Source: a bacterium (GTDB lineage: Bacteria > UBA9089 > CG2-30-40-21 > SBAY01). Taken from it: a stretch of DNA of 30,922 nucleotides. Below, piece after piece: positions 7,234 to 30,339 of this stretch. Position numbers and translations under genes: made by a program. The stretch spans positions 1 through 30,922 of the forward strand of contig JBFLYA010000019.1 of assembly GCA_040757115.1 (NCBI GenBank). Direction: 5' to 3'. The notes beneath the pieces were generated by a model. The model had not been told where the DNA came from. It saw nothing but the letters and a program-made list of their open reading frames with translations, and did not search any database. Each line of letters begins with the position of its first letter. The first letter of the stretch is position 1.

Positions 7234-7506
7234 TCAACGATTTAACTTTTTTGGTGGCTCATGTTTAGTTCGTTTGTATTGATTCCCCAGAAGAATTTGG
7301 GACATCTGCATCACTAATCGTAGTGCATCATTTACAGTCTTTTCATCAGGAAACGCCCGTGATACATCAGGTGCTAATAATACCAAATTTGTGCCCATTC
7401 GGTAGCGTGCATCATATTTACCTCGCACGCCACTCTTCAGCAGTTGGGACAAATCATATTCAGGACGAAGTTCATCATCCATTTCGATATCAGTATTCTT
7501 CTTCAT
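7234..7506 (-). CDS. Antitoxin-like partner of a BrnT-family toxin
   Basis: This 90-residue protein starting at ATG 7506 contains RPEYDLSQLLKSGVRGKYD followed by MGTNLVLLAPDVSRAFPDEK and VNDALRLVMQ. This is a pattern I know from small antitoxins encoded directly after BrnT-like toxins, where the second part forms a ribbon-helix-helix-like segment. The start at 7506 is preferred over the in-frame ATG at 7527 because GGAAGG lies just upstream of it and because it follows the usual toxin-antitoxin overlap. The start overlaps the last 17 nt of the truncated brnT frame. With the toxin gene broken, the antitoxin may be an orphan able to counter a related toxin elsewhere. The C-terminal ten residues are lysine-rich and may bind nucleic acid. 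Confidence 0.75.
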   Translation of the reverse strand: MKKNTDIEMDDELRPEYDLSQLLKSGVRGKYDARYRMGTNLVLLAPDVSRAFPDEKTVNDALRLVMQMSQILLGNQYKRTKHEPPKKLNR

Positions 7507-14647: not shown

Positions 14648-15952
14648 CTATCCTATTCCCGTAACATTTACCTCATCGATGTAAAAATGTGGGCTTCTAA
14701 CCCCTTCCCAGTCGGATAACTTTGAGCCAATTGCCCGTATTTTATTAAAAATATCAAAGAGATTACAGGCAACCATTGTATCTTTCAATCTGCCAACGAC
14801 CTCTCCATTTTCCACCTTAAATCCCAATTCAACATTAAAGGCAAATTCACCGGCTAAAACATTACTCTGCCCACCACCCAGAACTAAATCTATAATAATT
14901 CCTTCCTTCATATCCTTAATCATCTCGTAGAAGTCCATATTTCCTGGTAAAACTACAATATTACTGCAATGTGGTGCAGGTAAGGAATCAAAATCTCGAT
15001 AGCCATTACCAGTGGAGTTAGTTTTTAAAAAACCGGCGGTTTGTAAATCAAAGATATAATTTTTCAAGACACCTTGTTCAATCAATGGTGTCTTTCGTGT
15101 GGCTATTCCTTCTCCATCTACCGGACAACTACTTATTCCAAAATCCATCGTTGCATCGTCATAAATAGTTATTTTATCATCAAATATCCTTTCGCCAAGT
15201 TTCCCAATCAAAGGCGAGATACCTTTTTGAACTAATTTTCCATTTACACCGAGTTTAATGGTTTCTAAAAGCGTTGGGATTAATTTTGGAGTAAATATTG
15301 CGGGTAATTTTTTGGGTTTAGCTGAAAGCTCATTTTTAGACCAGGCTAACGACTCATTTATCTTGCTCACAATAGAATTAATATCCTTATTCAAATTGCA
15401 TCCACTGACATATTCAGTTAGCCATAAGAGGCTATTATTTCTTACTAAAAGTCCAGTAACACAAAAGGTAAATATGGTTTTTTGATATTCAAAATCAACC
15501 CCTGATGTATTCATAATCTTTGTCTCTAAAATAGTTTTATTAATCTCTAACTCTTTACAAAATAACTCAGGTTCAATGTTTGATAGTCGGTCTATCAGGC
15601 TTTTCCCTAATTCTACGCCTTGTTCAATGCTAAAATTCTCAACCTCTTTATCGAATATTTTTATTTGTGGAGGAATGTGTGGTTTTGTTGGGAATTCAAA
15701 TTTAGCCTCTTGACCAAATTTAGCACTAATAATTGCATTCTCAATTAATTGGGATGGATTAGTCAGATTTGTGGTTGAAGAAAATCCAATCTTACCCTCT
15801 TTTATGACCCTTAATCCCAAACCATTGATTTGTTTGGTATTGATATATTTTAACTTATTATTTTCGAATTTAGTTTGAGTTAAAATAAATTGTTGGTGAA
15901 TGGTTTCTGCATTTGGGGTATATTTTAAAATATTATTAAAAACCTCTTCCAC
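14648..15952 (-). CDS. pmbA: PmbA/TldE-type subunit of a TldD/TldE protease
   Basis: This 434-residue protein belongs to the PmbA_TldD family. The N-terminal domain includes GLGLRVIKEGKIGFSSTTNL (residues about 43-63). The C-terminal domain includes FDDKITIYDDATMDFGISSC, VDGEGIATRKTPLIEQGVL, GNGYRDFDSLPAPHCSN and LVLGGGQSNVLAGEFAFNV. As in known PmbA/TldE subunits, the zinc-binding HExxxH motif is absent; the partner subunit supplies it. TldD/TldE complexes degrade unfolded peptides and mature some ribosomally made peptides. Translation starts at GTG 15952, whose first base is the last base of the tldD stop (TAGTG), with GGAGGAAAA upstream, so translation is coupled to tldD. Confidence 0.9.
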   Translation of the reverse strand: MEEVFNNILKYTPNAETIHQQFILTQTKFENNKLKYINTKQINGLGLRVIKEGKIGFSSTTNLTNPSQLIENAIISAKFGQEAKFEFPTKPHIPPQIKIFDKEVENFSIEQGVELGKSLIDRLSNIEPELFCKELEINKTILETKIMNTSGVDFEYQKTIFTFCVTGLLVRNNSLLWLTEYVSGCNLNKDINSIVSKINESLAWSKNELSAKPKKLPAIFTPKLIPTLLETIKLGVNGKLVQKGISPLIGKLGERIFDDKITIYDDATMDFGISSCPVDGEGIATRKTPLIEQGVLKNYIFDLQTAGFLKTNSTGNGYRDFDSLPAPHCSNIVVLPGNMDFYEMIKDMKEGIIIDLVLGGGQSNVLAGEFAFNVELGFKVENGEVVGRLKDTMVACNLFDIFNKIRAIGSKLSDWEGVRSPHFYIDEVNVTGIG

Positions 15953-17319
15953 TATTTTCCTCCAATTACGATATTTTTAATTCGGATATGTGGTCCGCCG
16001 CAGGAAACAGGTAACGGCGACTGCCCATTTTTACCACAACCACCAAGTCCACCATAAAAGATTAAATCATTACCAATCGCCTCAATATTCATTAATGTTT
16101 CAAATACATTTCCAGTCAGCACAATATCCCGTAACAACTTTTTGACCTGACCATTTTTAATTAAATAAGCCTGTTGTGCCGAGAAGGTAAACATCTCACA
16201 ATCCGTATTTCCACCAATGTATCCTTTGGCATAAATTCCTTCTTTGACATCACTTATCATTTCTTCAAAAGATAGATTTCGAGGTTCAAGATAGGTATTT
16301 GACATCCGGACAATTGGTTCAAAATTATAATTAATCGCCCTGGCATTTGCGGTGGGTTTAGCATCCATTTTAGCCGCGGTCTCACAAGAATGTAGGCGAT
16401 TTAAAAATATCCCATTTTTAATAATCTCGGTTTTGCTCGCAGGAATTCCTTCCTCATCATAGGTATAAGAACCTGCTTGAAGTTGAAGTGTGGCGTCGTC
16501 AATTATTGTTAGTTCATCACCGCCAAACCTTTTACCCAATTTCATCAGTTCTTCCATTTTTTCATTTTCGTAGATATGGTCAGCCTCGGCTAAGTGTCCA
16601 AAAGCCTCGTGAATAAATACACCACATAACTCGGGGTCAAGAACAACGGTATATTTACCTCCCTGGATACTTTTGGCTTTAAGTAAATCTACAGCTAATC
16701 TGGAGACATTTTCTACCTTATCATCCAATCCTTGAACCGTTTCATAGCCACAATAATCACCTGTAGATGTATGCGCCTGTTGAACATTCATGCCATCTTT
16801 TGCCATCGCCACAAAACTAATCCCGCTAAATACCTTTTCCTGAAGTATATCTGTGCCTTGCGAATTGGCAAAATACTGTTTTTTATAATAATCTCGATAA
16901 GTAACCTTTGAGGTTTGAATAAGTGGGGAAAAATTCAGGATAATGGAATTATATTGTTGGCAAAGGTGATATTTTTCTTCTAATGATATTTCTCTTGGGT
17001 CTTTTCCACCAGAGATTATTTTAGAATCTACAACAGGTTGGGCAAAGGCAAACTGAGTTTTACTCTTCCCGGTCAATGTTGCCTCTTGAATGGCTAATTT
17101 GATATGAGTCTCAAGTTGCTCTATATTATTAAATGAAACAAACCCAAAGCCACCATTGACTAACGCTCTAACATTCCCGCCGATTTTAGTAGTTACACCA
17201 ATATTTTCAAGTTCTTTTCCGATAAAATCTACTTTTGTGGTTTGGTTTTCCTCTATCCTGATTTCTAAATAATCTACTTTTGGGGCTTTATTGATAGCAT
17301 TTTTAATGAAATTTCTCAT
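15952..17319 (-). CDS. tldD: TldD-type zinc metalloprotease subunit
   Basis: The 455-residue protein carries the TldD active site HEAFGHLAEAD (His237, Glu238, His242) in the second half, preceded by YTVVLDPELCGVFI. It then has DDATLQLQAGSYTYDEEGIP, ARAINYNFEPIVRMSNTYL and the terminal glycine-rich GGLGGCGKNGQSPLPVSCGG. With PmbA it should form the TldD/TldE peptidase. I use ATG 17319: a longer open frame to 17436 exists, but its first 39 codons lie in mobile element E read backwards. The promoter is at 17646-17674 on the far side of that element. The start region is GGAAAATAAATATG. Element E has inserted within what was probably AGAGGAAAATAAATATG, leaving only a partial ribosome site. Confidence 0.92.
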   Translation of the reverse strand: MRNFIKNAINKAPKVDYLEIRIEENQTTKVDFIGKELENIGVTTKIGGNVRALVNGGFGFVSFNNIEQLETHIKLAIQEATLTGKSKTQFAFAQPVVDSKIISGGKDPREISLEEKYHLCQQYNSIILNFSPLIQTSKVTYRDYYKKQYFANSQGTDILQEKVFSGISFVAMAKDGMNVQQAHTSTGDYCGYETVQGLDDKVENVSRLAVDLLKAKSIQGGKYTVVLDPELCGVFIHEAFGHLAEADHIYENEKMEELMKLGKRFGGDELTIIDDATLQLQAGSYTYDEEGIPASKTEIIKNGIFLNRLHSCETAAKMDAKPTANARAINYNFEPIVRMSNTYLEPRNLSFEEMISDVKEGIYAKGYIGGNTDCEMFTFSAQQAYLIKNGQVKKLLRDIVLTGNVFETLMNIEAIGNDLIFYGGLGGCGKNGQSPLPVSCGGPHIRIKNIVIGGK

Positions 17320-17330
17320 ATTTATTTTCC

Positions 17331-17602
17331 GTAACCGTTCAGATGATAATTTACCGCAGAGACGCAGAGGAACAGAGAAAATATAGAAATAAATCAGATA
17401 ACATAAAAGATTATTGATGCAGACATGAAAATACATAGGACCTGCTTACCGAATGTTCAGCAGGCAAGCCAGATTTGTTAATCAATTTTAATGTTGTTGT
17501 ACTCAAGATCTTGCCCTGATGAAAATCAGGGATGTTAAGCGTCTCGTAAATAGATTTTAATTTTTTTCTCTGCGTCTCTGTGTCTCTGCGGTGAACGGTT
17601 AC
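17331..17602. mobile_element. Mobile element E: 11-bp terminal inverted repeats, 8-bp target duplication, decayed GxxExxY gene
   Basis: The ends are GTAACCGTTCA (17331-17341) and TGAACGGTTAC (17592-17602), perfect inverted repeats. They are followed inwards by ACCGCAGAGACGCAGAGG on the left and CTGTGTCTCTGCGGTG on the right. TATTTTCC lies immediately outside each end (17323-17330 and 17603-17610). The interior carries a decayed gene on the + strand. The element lies between the tldD promoter and the tldD start, on the leader side of the tldD-ribD divergent region, and with the two promoters explains the 459-bp gap 17320-17778. Confidence 0.88.
17383..17560 (+). pseudogene. GxxExxY-family gene remnant (PD-(D/E)XK-like), copy 1
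   Basis: At 17383-17447 the sequence reads IEINQIT, stop, KIIDADMKIHRT. That is the GxxExxY N-terminus (xINQITEKIIGAAIEVHKTL), in which the Gly is now Asp and the motif is ruined. At about 17477-17510 it reads LLINFNVVVLK and ends DVKRLVNRF with TAA at 17558-17560, the conserved C-terminus of the family. Between them the centre is deleted. Two small palindromes have appeared: CCTGCT/AGCAGG near 17432-17462, and CCCTGAT-GAAA-ATCAGGG at 17514-17531, which splits the C-terminal part. Full-length members are about 125-130 residues, so this copy is dead. Confidence 0.8.
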
Positions 17603-17645
17603 TATTTTCCTCTGAAAATGGAAAAATGTAATTCTAACGATTTAT

Positions 17646-25516: not shown

Positions 25517-26000
25517 GTAACTGTTCACCGCAGAGACACAGAGACGCAGAGAAAAAATTAAAATCTATTCACCAGAGACAGAAATTTCCTTTTTTTTGTG
25601 CATTTTGGGTCTTTCGTTGTTTATTAATCTTTTAATACTTACTTTTGACTAACTGTTTTTAAGCCTTTTTAAACACCGAAAAACACGAAAAAAAGTAACC
25701 GTTCAGGCTATATATCAAAAGTGTAAGAAAGGGGATAAGGAGATAAGAGTGATATGGAGATAAGATAATAGAATATAGATTGAAATTTATAGAAATAGGT
25801 AGAAATTGATTGTGGAAAACAACAAATTTCCATAAATTTCTATTAGTTTCTATTAATTTCAATTTTTTTATAATATCTCCCTATCTCCTTAATCTCCACA
25901 TCTCCTTTTGTTACACCACCTGAACGCTTACGGAAAAAAAGATATTTTCCTCTCTGCGAACTCTTGCGTCTCTGCGGTAAAGGATTACCTGAACGGTTAC
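25517..26000. repeat. Composite nested repeat island D
   Basis: GTAACTGTTCA at 25517 begins an inverted, truncated right end of the GxxExxY element, including AAAATTAAAATCTATT, the complement of the gene's last codons. A second unit runs from GTAACCGTTCA (25695-25705) to TGAACGCTTAC (25921-25931). Inside it, GGGGATAAGGAGATAAG (from 25731) pairs with CTATCTCCTTAATCTCC (about 25881-25897). Inside that, GAAATTTATAGAAATAGG pairs with CCATAAATTTCTATTAG. A third terminus, TGAACGGTTAC, ends at 26000. GAAAAAAA occurs at 25687-25694 and 25933-25940, but it is low-complexity and one base off the right end. Together with 26074-26196 it explains the 782-bp gap 25433-26214, which holds no gene. Confidence 0.7.
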
Positions 26001-26214: not shown

Positions 26215-27153
26215 ATGCGTTTTTTAGATGTTAAAACAGATTATGCCTTCAAAAAGGTTTTTGGCTCTCAAGGGAGTAAGGATATCCTTATTAGCTTTCT
26301 TAACTCGGTGATTGATTTTAAAGAGACTGAAAAAATCGTTGATTTAGTAATCGTTGACCCCTACCAAATACCATTAATCAAGGGGATGAAGGATACCTAT
26401 GTCGATGTTAAAGCCAAACTCTCAAACCAGAAGAATGTCATTATCGAGATGCAGGTTTTGAATGTAGAAGGGTTTGAGAAAAGGATTTTATATAATGCGG
26501 CTAAGACATATTCAGCTCAGCTAAAAGAGACAGAATCATTTACCAGCCTTGAACCTATTATTGCTCTAACCATTACGGACTTTATCATGTTCGAGGATGT
26601 AGATAAGGTTATCACCTATTTCAATCTCATTGAAAAGGAGACTTTAATCAAATACCATGATGAAATCGAACTTGTTTTTATCGAATTGCCCAAATTCAAG
26701 AAGAATGAGGATGAGCTGGATTCAATCAAAGACAAATGGATATATTTTATAAAGAATGCAGGCAGACTTGAATATACTCCAGAGAGCTTAGTTAAAGAGA
26801 TAGAAATAAAGGAGGCATTTGAAATAGCCAATACAGCGGGGATGAGTGAAAAGGAGTTAGAAATTCAATATAAGCGGCACGATTTTATCCGAATGCAAAG
26901 AGGTGCGATAGAGTTTGCCTTAAAACAAGGGTTAAAACAAGGAATAGAAAAAGGAATACAAAAAGGGTTAAAACAAGGAATACAAAAAGGATTAAAACAA
27001 GGAATACAACAAGGCAAAATAGAAGTAGCGAAAACTCTTTTGAAATCAGGCGAGAAAGTTGAAAAAATATCACAGGTAACGGGATTAACAATAGAGGAAA
27101 TTAGTAACTGTTCACCGCAGAGGCGCAGAGGAAGAGAGAAAACATGGAAATAA
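26215..27153 (+). CDS. Rpn-family PD-(D/E)XK nuclease (recombination-promoting nuclease/putative transposase)
   Basis: The 312-residue protein begins RFLDVKTDYAFKKVFG, the hallmark of the Rpn/PDDEXK_2 family. The nuclease core follows: DTYVDVKAKL (Asp) and NVIIEMQVLN (E-x-Q in place of E-x-K, which is common in this family), then KRILYNAAKTYSAQL. Residues about 238-272 are a tandem array of LKQGIQKG-type units, which Rpn proteins often carry near the C-terminus. Family members promote RecA-independent recombination in Escherichia coli and have been linked to phage defence. The start has AAAGGAG eight bases upstream. The last 15 residues (from NCSPQRRRGRE) are encoded by the left end of element G, so the original tail was lost when that element arrived. 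Confidence 0.9.
   Translation: MRFLDVKTDYAFKKVFGSQGSKDILISFLNSVIDFKETEKIVDLVIVDPYQIPLIKGMKDTYVDVKAKLSNQKNVIIEMQVLNVEGFEKRILYNAAKTYSAQLKETESFTSLEPIIALTITDFIMFEDVDKVITYFNLIEKETLIKYHDEIELVFIELPKFKKNEDELDSIKDKWIYFIKNAGRLEYTPESLVKEIEIKEAFEIANTAGMSEKELEIQYKRHDFIRMQRGAIEFALKQGLKQGIEKGIQKGLKQGIQKGLKQGIQQGKIEVAKTLLKSGEKVEKISQVTGLTIEEISNCSPQRRRGREKTWK
26921..27015 (+). repeat. 24-bp in-frame tandem repeat in the Rpn gene
   Basis: About four imperfect copies of a 24-bp unit with words TTAAAACAAGGAATACAAAA encode LKQGIQKG repeats. Copies differ by only a few bases, so the number of units could change by slippage or recombination without breaking the frame. Confidence 0.85.
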
Positions 27154-27366
27154 ATCAGATAACAGAAAAAATTATTGGGGCAGCAATTGAAATACATAAG
27201 ACATTAGATTCATGTCTATTAGAATCTGCATAGGAAGAATGAGGAATAAAAGGATAGGTTTATTGATCAATTTTAATGTTTCTGTTCTAAGAGATGGAAT
27301 TAAGCGTATAGCCAATAGATTTTAATTTTTTCTCTGTGTCTCCGCGTCTCTGCGGTGAATAGTTAC
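27104..27366. mobile_element. Element G: GxxExxY-carrying member of the GTAACCGTTCA family
   Basis: The ends are GTAACTGTTCA (27104-27114) and TGAATAGTTAC (27356-27366), inverted with one mismatch, followed inwards by ACCGCAGAGGCGCAGAGG and GTCTCCGCGTCTCTGCGG. The left end overlaps the final codons of the Rpn gene. No flanking 8-bp duplication is seen. With the hairpins at 27452-27495 and 27519-27546 it explains the 429-bp gap 27154-27582. Confidence 0.82.
27144..27325 (+). pseudogene. GxxExxY-family gene remnant (PD-(D/E)XK-like), copy 2
   Basis: ATG 27144 opens a frame reading MEINQITEKIIGAAIEIHKT followed by LDSCLLESA. It stops at TAG 27231, where the family has the Tyr of the GxxExxY signature (ESAYEECL). 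In a second frame 27257-27325 encodes GLLINFNVSVLRDGIKRIAN with RF and TAA, the intact C-terminus. About 75 central residues are deleted. The N-terminus preserves G12 and E16 better than copy 1 does. GxxExxY proteins are small and assigned to a PD-(D/E)XK nuclease family (PF13366); their biological role is not established. Confidence 0.88.
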
Positions 27367-29482: not shown

Positions 29483-30268
29483 ATGCCAATTATTACTTTA
29501 ATCACAGATTTTGGGCTAAAAGATAATTATGTCGGGATAATAAAAGGAGTAATCCATTCAATCAATCCTGAGGTAAAAATAATTGATATTACTCATCTTA
29601 TAAATTCTTATAGTCTGGTGGAAGCAGGCTATATTCTCAAATCTTCTTTCAATTATTTCCCGAAAGGAACAATTCATATTATTATTGTTGACCCTGAGGT
29701 TGGTAGCCAGCGTAAAATTATTTTACTAAAATCAAAAGATTACTATTTTTTGGCTCCAGATAATGGAATTTTAAGTTTTATCTTGGATAGATTTAAAGAG
29801 ATAAAAATTGTTGAACTGACCAATAAAAAGTATTTCCTGCAGGAAGTTAGTCAAACCTTCCATGGAAGAGATATTTTTGCTCCGGTAGCCGCTTATTTAA
29901 GTTTGGGTAAAAACATTGAAGAATTTGGTCCTGAACTAAATAAAATAAAAACACTTGCTCCTGAATTTAAACCTGAATTTAATAAAGATAAAATAGTTGG
30001 TCAGATAATCTATATCGACCATTTTGGAAATCTAATTACGAATATTGTCAAAGAAGAATTTACTTTTGATGATTCTAAAGTGTTAATTGAAATAGCAGGG
30101 CAGGAAATAAAAGGTATTAACAAAACATATAGTCAGTTAAAACCAGGAGAACTCTTAGCCTTATGGGGCAGTAGTAATCACCTGGAGGTCGCCGCAAATC
30201 AAGCTAATGCTCAACAATTACTTAAAATTGAAAAGGGAAAAACAGCAGTCATAATTCGTTATTTGTAA
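29483..30268 (+). CDS. SAM hydroxide adenosyltransferase (DUF62 family)
   Basis: The 261-residue protein begins ITLITDFGLKDNYVGIIKGV and has IIIVDPEVGS, FLAPDNGILS, FHGRDIFAPVAAYL and IYIDHFGNLITNI. These are conserved features of the SAM hydroxide adenosyltransferases, which convert SAM and water to adenosine and methionine, and of their fluorinase and chlorinase relatives. The family's N-terminal and C-terminal domains are both complete. Without the halogenase-specific insertion, hydrolysis is the most likely activity. Its TAA stop (30266-30268) lies within the terminus GTAACCGTTCA of element H, so the repeat supplies the end of the gene. Confidence 0.9.
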   Translation: MPIITLITDFGLKDNYVGIIKGVIHSINPEVKIIDITHLINSYSLVEAGYILKSSFNYFPKGTIHIIIVDPEVGSQRKIILLKSKDYYFLAPDNGILSFILDRFKEIKIVELTNKKYFLQEVSQTFHGRDIFAPVAAYLSLGKNIEEFGPELNKIKTLAPEFKPEFNKDKIVGQIIYIDHFGNLITNIVKEEFTFDDSKVLIEIAGQEIKGINKTYSQLKPGELLALWGSSNHLEVAANQANAQQLLKIEKGKTAVIIRYL

Positions 30269-30339
30269 CCGTTCAGGTAGTCCTTTACCGCAGAGATGCA
30301 GAGGAACAGAGTCTCTGTGTCTGTGCGGTGAACAGTTAC
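30265..30339. mobile_element. Element H: minimal 75-bp member of the GTAACCGTTCA family
   Basis: The ends are GTAACCGTTCA (30265-30275) and TGAACAGTTAC (30329-30339), one mismatch when paired. Inside, ACCGCAGAGATGCAGAGG pairs with CTCTGTGTCTGTGCGG. Nothing is left between the two arms, so it is a solo hairpin with no GxxExxY sequence. It supplies the stop of the upstream gene and lies 15 bp from the next start. No target duplication is seen. Confidence 0.82.

Follow-up and report, generated by a model that had tools for sequence, protein, structure and literature searches.

A mini-transposon with IS66-type ends and remnants of a GxxExxY gene splits the ribosome site of tldD

The window, by which we mean the whole analyzed stretch of 30,922 nucleotides, contains a tldD-type metallopeptidase gene with Pfam PmbA_TldD domains (positions 15952–17319, minus strand), whose ATG start codon is read from position 17319 and whose ribosome site is split. 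In front of tldD lies a unit of 272 bp (17331–17602) with perfect 11-bp inverted ends, GTAACCGTTCA on the left (17331–17341, plus strand) and TGAACGGTTAC on the right (17592–17602, minus strand). The sequence on both sides of the unit consists of an exact 8-bp target-site duplication, TATTTTCC (17323–17330 and 17603–17610). Within the ends we identified an inner arm of CRCRGAG-type repeats (17353–17380, plus strand) and the opposite arm with the same type of repeats in inverted orientation (17568–17591, minus strand). The arms enclose remnants of a GxxExxY gene (17381–17566, plus strand), in which both gene ends are kept and the nuclease core is missing; a stretch coding for GLLINFNV was recognized by eye within these remnants. 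No IS66 transposase frame was found inside the 272 bp, and the unit is therefore not an autonomous IS66 element. The unit is absent from the PF13366 matches and its only similarity to GxxExxY proteins is a 26-residue tblastn match (E 6e-4), so that it does not itself encode a member of this family (TIGR04256 / PF13366). An Rfam search gave no match for the window or for the sampled cassette loci discussed below.

The genome from which the window derives (G000; 4.3 Mb in 462 contigs) harbors a large family of such elements. A search of this genome listed 72 matches to the window element; in the first genome search, 40 of 410 candidates were scored. The 11-mer end is present at 553 sites when matched exactly (8 for the reversed control), and at 1019 sites when at most one mismatch is allowed (65 for the reversed control). 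Each end was paired with the next facing end over 2.18 Mb of the genome, and an exact 8-bp duplication was observed in 52 of these 140 adjacent pairs, versus 0.45 in shuffled partners. Duplications of 7, 9, and 10 bp were found in 3, 0, and 0 pairs, respectively, so that a length of 8 bp stands out. A perfect duplication is absent in 88 of the pairs, some of which will be decayed, mispaired or nested. As both the end sites and the duplications are far above their controls, the structure of the window element is not due to chance, and we conclude that a genuine mini-transposon of 272 bp, with ends of the IS66 type, was recently inserted here. The original prediction, which had interpreted the inverted termini and the 8-bp duplication of this single locus as a signature of transposition and had pointed to the duplications of other copies as a check, is thus borne out.

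Allowing at most two mismatches in the ends, a wider collection of 105 distinct duplication-flanked elements was obtained, 95 of which have an exact duplication. The duplicated targets of these 95 elements are 76% A + T. Only 13 of the 95 insertions are located inside reading frames of at least 120 amino acids, compared to 79% of random positions, and 19 of the distances to a flanking start codon do not exceed 22 nt (starts called mechanically). The 105 elements comprise about ten interior types, with GxxExxY similarity in 33, similarity to four-helix (IVP) proteins in 5, and neither in the rest. One IS66-type end pair can thus frame hundreds of small elements with varied interiors, some of them in ribosome sites. 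The window itself contains further members of the family. A second, GxxExxY-type element (25517–26000) appears to be interrupted by a 237-bp member (25695–25931) with an imperfect duplication, GAAAAAAA / GGAAAAAA. A decayed GxxExxY frame is found in another member (27104–27366, plus strand; ends GTAACTGTTCA / TGAATAGTTAC), and a minimal member of 75 bp (30265–30339) consists of ends and arms only; no duplication was seen at either of these two. A PDDEXK_2 gene (PF12784), which belongs to another nuclease family, is located between family members at 26215–27153.

Full-length copies with the same ends, proposed earlier as a further check, are present in the genome of the window. Element L071 (496 bp, exact duplication TTATACAC) contains a full-length GxxExxY gene, and L075 (511 bp, exact duplication GATAGGTG) a full-length gene with one stop. 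The full-length relatives of the window element thus encode GxxExxY (TIGR04256 / PF13366), with stops in some copies; L071 and L075 hold the gene as a passenger in the manner of a mobile insertion cassette, and the window copy holds only a remnant. The core-less arrangement of the window copy also occurs in L018 and in a copy (L216) from a second species of the same genus (G001, the sister species), and further copies of 266–294 bp match the window element end to end. The occurrence of the same deletion derivative in other copies and in the sister species implies that loss of the core preceded the insertion, and the end-to-end matches imply that the derivative spread in that form. As core-less copies were amplified, GxxExxY is dispensable in cis. 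The earlier description of a decayed GxxExxY gene therefore stands with respect to the presence of a gene remnant, but not with respect to its history, since the gene did not decay in place and its core was deleted before insertion.

To our knowledge, GxxExxY proteins form a widespread orphan family without an assigned role. A structural model based on an alignment of 57 relatives reached a pLDDT of 96, and the motifs D..ExK and QxxxY are present in 74 and 72 of 75 sequences, respectively. Neither a sequence search of solved structures nor Foldseek with the model (E ≤ 0.001) gave a match. The top row of VIA-align was SSO0001 (4ic1; Z 9.4, rmsd 3.2, 96 aligned residues), which we take to be a Cas4 protein, and archaeal Holliday junction resolvases scored Z 6–7, a level that VIA-align calls common. 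The fold matches and the near-invariant motifs support the prediction that GxxExxY is a PD-(D/E)XK nuclease.

Removal of the element together with one copy of TATTTTCC yields AGAGGAAAATAAATATG before tldD. In the sister species, tldD is 98% identical and its leader lacks the element; the TTGACG-17-TATAAT promoter assigned to tldD in the original prediction is present in the window and conserved in this leader. The empty site that had been anticipated in a close relative is thus seen, with the qualification that it reads AGAGGAAAGATG and is a small indel apart from the predicted pre-insertion allele AGAGGAAAATAAATATG. The tldD leader of G003 is strongly diverged from that of the window. The comparison of filled and empty sites, which is based on few loci of the sister species, includes a reciprocal case: L216 contains an element (272 bp, duplication GCAAAATA) whose empty site lies in the genome of the window, where the flanks of the element align to L100 with an overlap of exactly 8 bp (7389–7396), corresponding to a single target copy. 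The elements thus show insertion polymorphism with an empty site, as is characteristic of an IS66-derived MITE. The small indel would also fit a near-precise excision in the sister species, with a tldD insertion that predates the divergence of the two species, but the absence of any remnant of the element ends in G001 and the almost exact empty site of the reciprocal L216/L100 case make such a history unlikely. Transposition into the tldD ribosome site, as originally proposed, is supported by both the family-wide duplications and the element-free site of the sister species. In G005, from another genus, inspection by eye of the region upstream of tldD (L245) showed a separate element, whose ends are GTAACAGTTCA-like, whose arms are of CGCAGAG and which has the near-duplication AAAATTAA / TAAATTAA.

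Inverted ends starting with 5′-GTAA are a trait of the IS66 family, for which the ends GTAACCGTCCGGGCA and GTAAGCGTCCGG have been reported (PMC12888890), and the former shares 12 of 15 positions with the ends found here. IS66 transposase genes were identified between such ends in three genomes: in L211 of the genome of the window (between GTAACCGTTCAGGTA at both ends, with two stops inside), and in L285 and L284 of relatives from the same order, with open frames of 476 amino acids (between GTAACCGTTCAC ends) and 541 amino acids (between GTAACTACTCAGG ends), respectively. An 8-bp duplication was found at none of these three copies, and the one copy from the genome of the window, with its stops, is not an intact driver; the link to the transposase is based on the family model and the end sequence. 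IS66 elements captured on trap plasmids, ISPpa5a and ISPpa7, are tabulated with 8-bp duplications (PMC3281130). The window element is multicopy, short and without a transposase gene, it has an 8-bp target duplication, and its 5′-GTAA ends match those of an IS66 element from its own lineage. It is best read, from its sequence, as an IS66-driven MITE, and we consider it highly probable that the unit is a non-autonomous element of the IS66 family, internally deleted from a GxxExxY cassette of approximately 470 bp within IS66-type ends, an assignment that draws on the ends, the duplication and the family comparison. The genomes G008 and G013, which belong to the same phylum, contain 485 and 127 copies of GTAACCGTTCA, respectively, but gave no match to PF03050; their driver may have been lost, have diverged or be missing from the assembly.

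Another transposase family that makes 8-bp duplications could drive the chassis, the likeness to IS66 ends then having another cause. Such duplications are also made by other IS families, for example by ISPpa9 of the IS6 family (PMC3281130), and the IS66 copies found here are without them. However, the end type is common to the IS66 copies in all three genomes, the literature ends match it closely (PMC12888890), and no other transposase was recognized between such ends in approximately half of the genome (frames judged by eye), which leaves little room for a different driver. Even less credence can be given to a role of the GxxExxY nuclease as recombinase for the elements with GTAACCGTTCA ends, although the gene or its remains are found in 33 of the 105 members and the modeled protein resembles PD-(D/E)XK-type nucleases and has conserved motifs. 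Elements whose cargo is a four-helix gene, or in which no gene is detectable, have the same ends and 8-bp duplications, copies without the nuclease core were amplified, IS66 genes lie between the same ends, and such ends frame none of 80 loci with GxxExxY in other genomes (these loci are the top matches to a single query set and represent one part of the family). The choice between recombinase and passenger, posed in the original prediction, is accordingly answered in favor of the latter: the IS66-type ends and duplication, the IS66 genes between such ends and the likewise framed elements that lack GxxExxY indicate that the protein is a passenger of the IS66-type chassis and not its transposase.

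In the preferred IS66-driven reading, the GTAACCGTTCA ends would be recognized by a DDE transposase of the IS66 type, provided in trans, which would move or copy the unit and join it to AT-rich DNA, for the most part intergenic, cut with an 8-bp stagger. For the window copy, the cut would have hit the ribosome site of tldD, of which GGAAAATAAATATG would have remained, through the duplication, as a partial site.

Compared to IS66 insertion sequences with a single transposase, such as L285, the window element is alike in its 5′-GTAA inverted ends and the 8-bp duplication of the family, but differs in its length of 272 bp and the lack of a transposase gene. With bacterial MITEs and mobile insertion cassettes (MICs) it shares the short length, the multiple copies, the IS-like ends with duplications and a passenger or its remnant instead of a transposase, whereas the passenger gene here codes for a GxxExxY nuclease and has inverted repeat arms of its own; no MITE or MIC with such an arm-flanked passenger was found in the literature searched. 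IS66 elements with passenger genes are known as tIS66, for example ISPa75 with fosZ, which likewise carries a passenger gene between IS66 ends, but has retained its transposase genes and has a resistance gene as the passenger (PMC12888890). The intervening sequences of 23S rRNA with an S23p frame (PMC4990558) are alike in anatomy only, with a small frame inside a long inverted repeat; the elements described here are not in rRNA, and GxxExxY has a predicted nuclease fold rather than a four-helix bundle, although IVP-type genes in the genome of the window share the IS66-type chassis. This genome has 26 matches to four-helix IVP (PF05635) genes. IVP loci (L261, L265, L267, L268, L276, and others) mostly lie between inverted short-repeat arrays that differ from copy to copy, and several IVP genes are located within GTAACTATTCA ends with exact 8-bp duplications.

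In the loci from other, named genomes, C[AG]C[AG][AG]AG repeats precede the GxxExxY gene and recur in inverted orientation after it. Each side of the gene has at least two repeat units in 48 of 73 loci, versus 0 of 63 control stretches, and a typical arm consists of three 7-nt repeats of the CRCRGAG type. According to the record titles, which for the most part denote MAGs, these loci represent at least 11 bacterial phyla (Pseudomonadota, Acidobacteriota, Chloroflexota, Planctomycetota, Bacteroidota, Cyanobacteriota, Verrucomicrobiota, Spirochaetota, Desulfobacterota, Nitrospinota, and Sumerlaeota); in a MAG of the Methanosarcinales the arms are located further upstream. The two arms of a cassette covary: they agree at variable positions within a locus (0.84, versus 0.57 when shuffled, with a maximum of 0.676 in 2000 shuffles), and their spacing agrees within the locus in 33 of 51 cases (15.2 when shuffled). 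Across 53 loci, the arm-gene-arm unit showed no consistent target duplication where it lies outside a transposon chassis. In the Bacteroidales, the cassette is found in a different chassis with GCTACTCTTT ends and exact 8-bp duplications (L300, 1757–2454; L303, 1757–2453). A GxxExxY gene with arms is located between fabD and fabG in Sphingomonas parapaucimobilis, and likewise between radA and the next gene in Bacteroides finegoldii; the gene is absent at the corresponding places in Sphingomonas paeninsulae, Rhizobium indigoferae and Parabacteroides distasonis. A search of phage records gave no match, and a plasmid search yielded 8 records. In the literature searched, we found no published description of GxxExxY genes between inverted repeat arms, and exact 15-mers of the arm sequences gave only an unrelated fungal match.

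We consider this cassette layer the more interesting part of our findings, compared to the IS66-type MITE insertion, as it provides a physical context for GxxExxY: transposon cargo in some lineages, and cassettes with covarying arms in many phyla. Tentatively, the GxxExxY gene and its two inverted arms (outer ends TTCAC / GTGAA) might form a genetic unit of their own that is spread over bacteria of many phyla and is present in at least one MAG of a methanogen, with a nuclease that acts on a hairpin or cruciform of its own arms, and that was taken up by transposon chassis in some lineages, of the IS66 type here and of the different 8-bp-duplication type in the Bacteroidales. This physical context makes the hypothesis of a nuclease acting on its own arms directly testable. 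At L067, L069, and L070 in the genome of the window, other GxxExxY copies have inverted repeats of the CGACCTGTGAAATAGG type on their flanks instead of GTAA ends.
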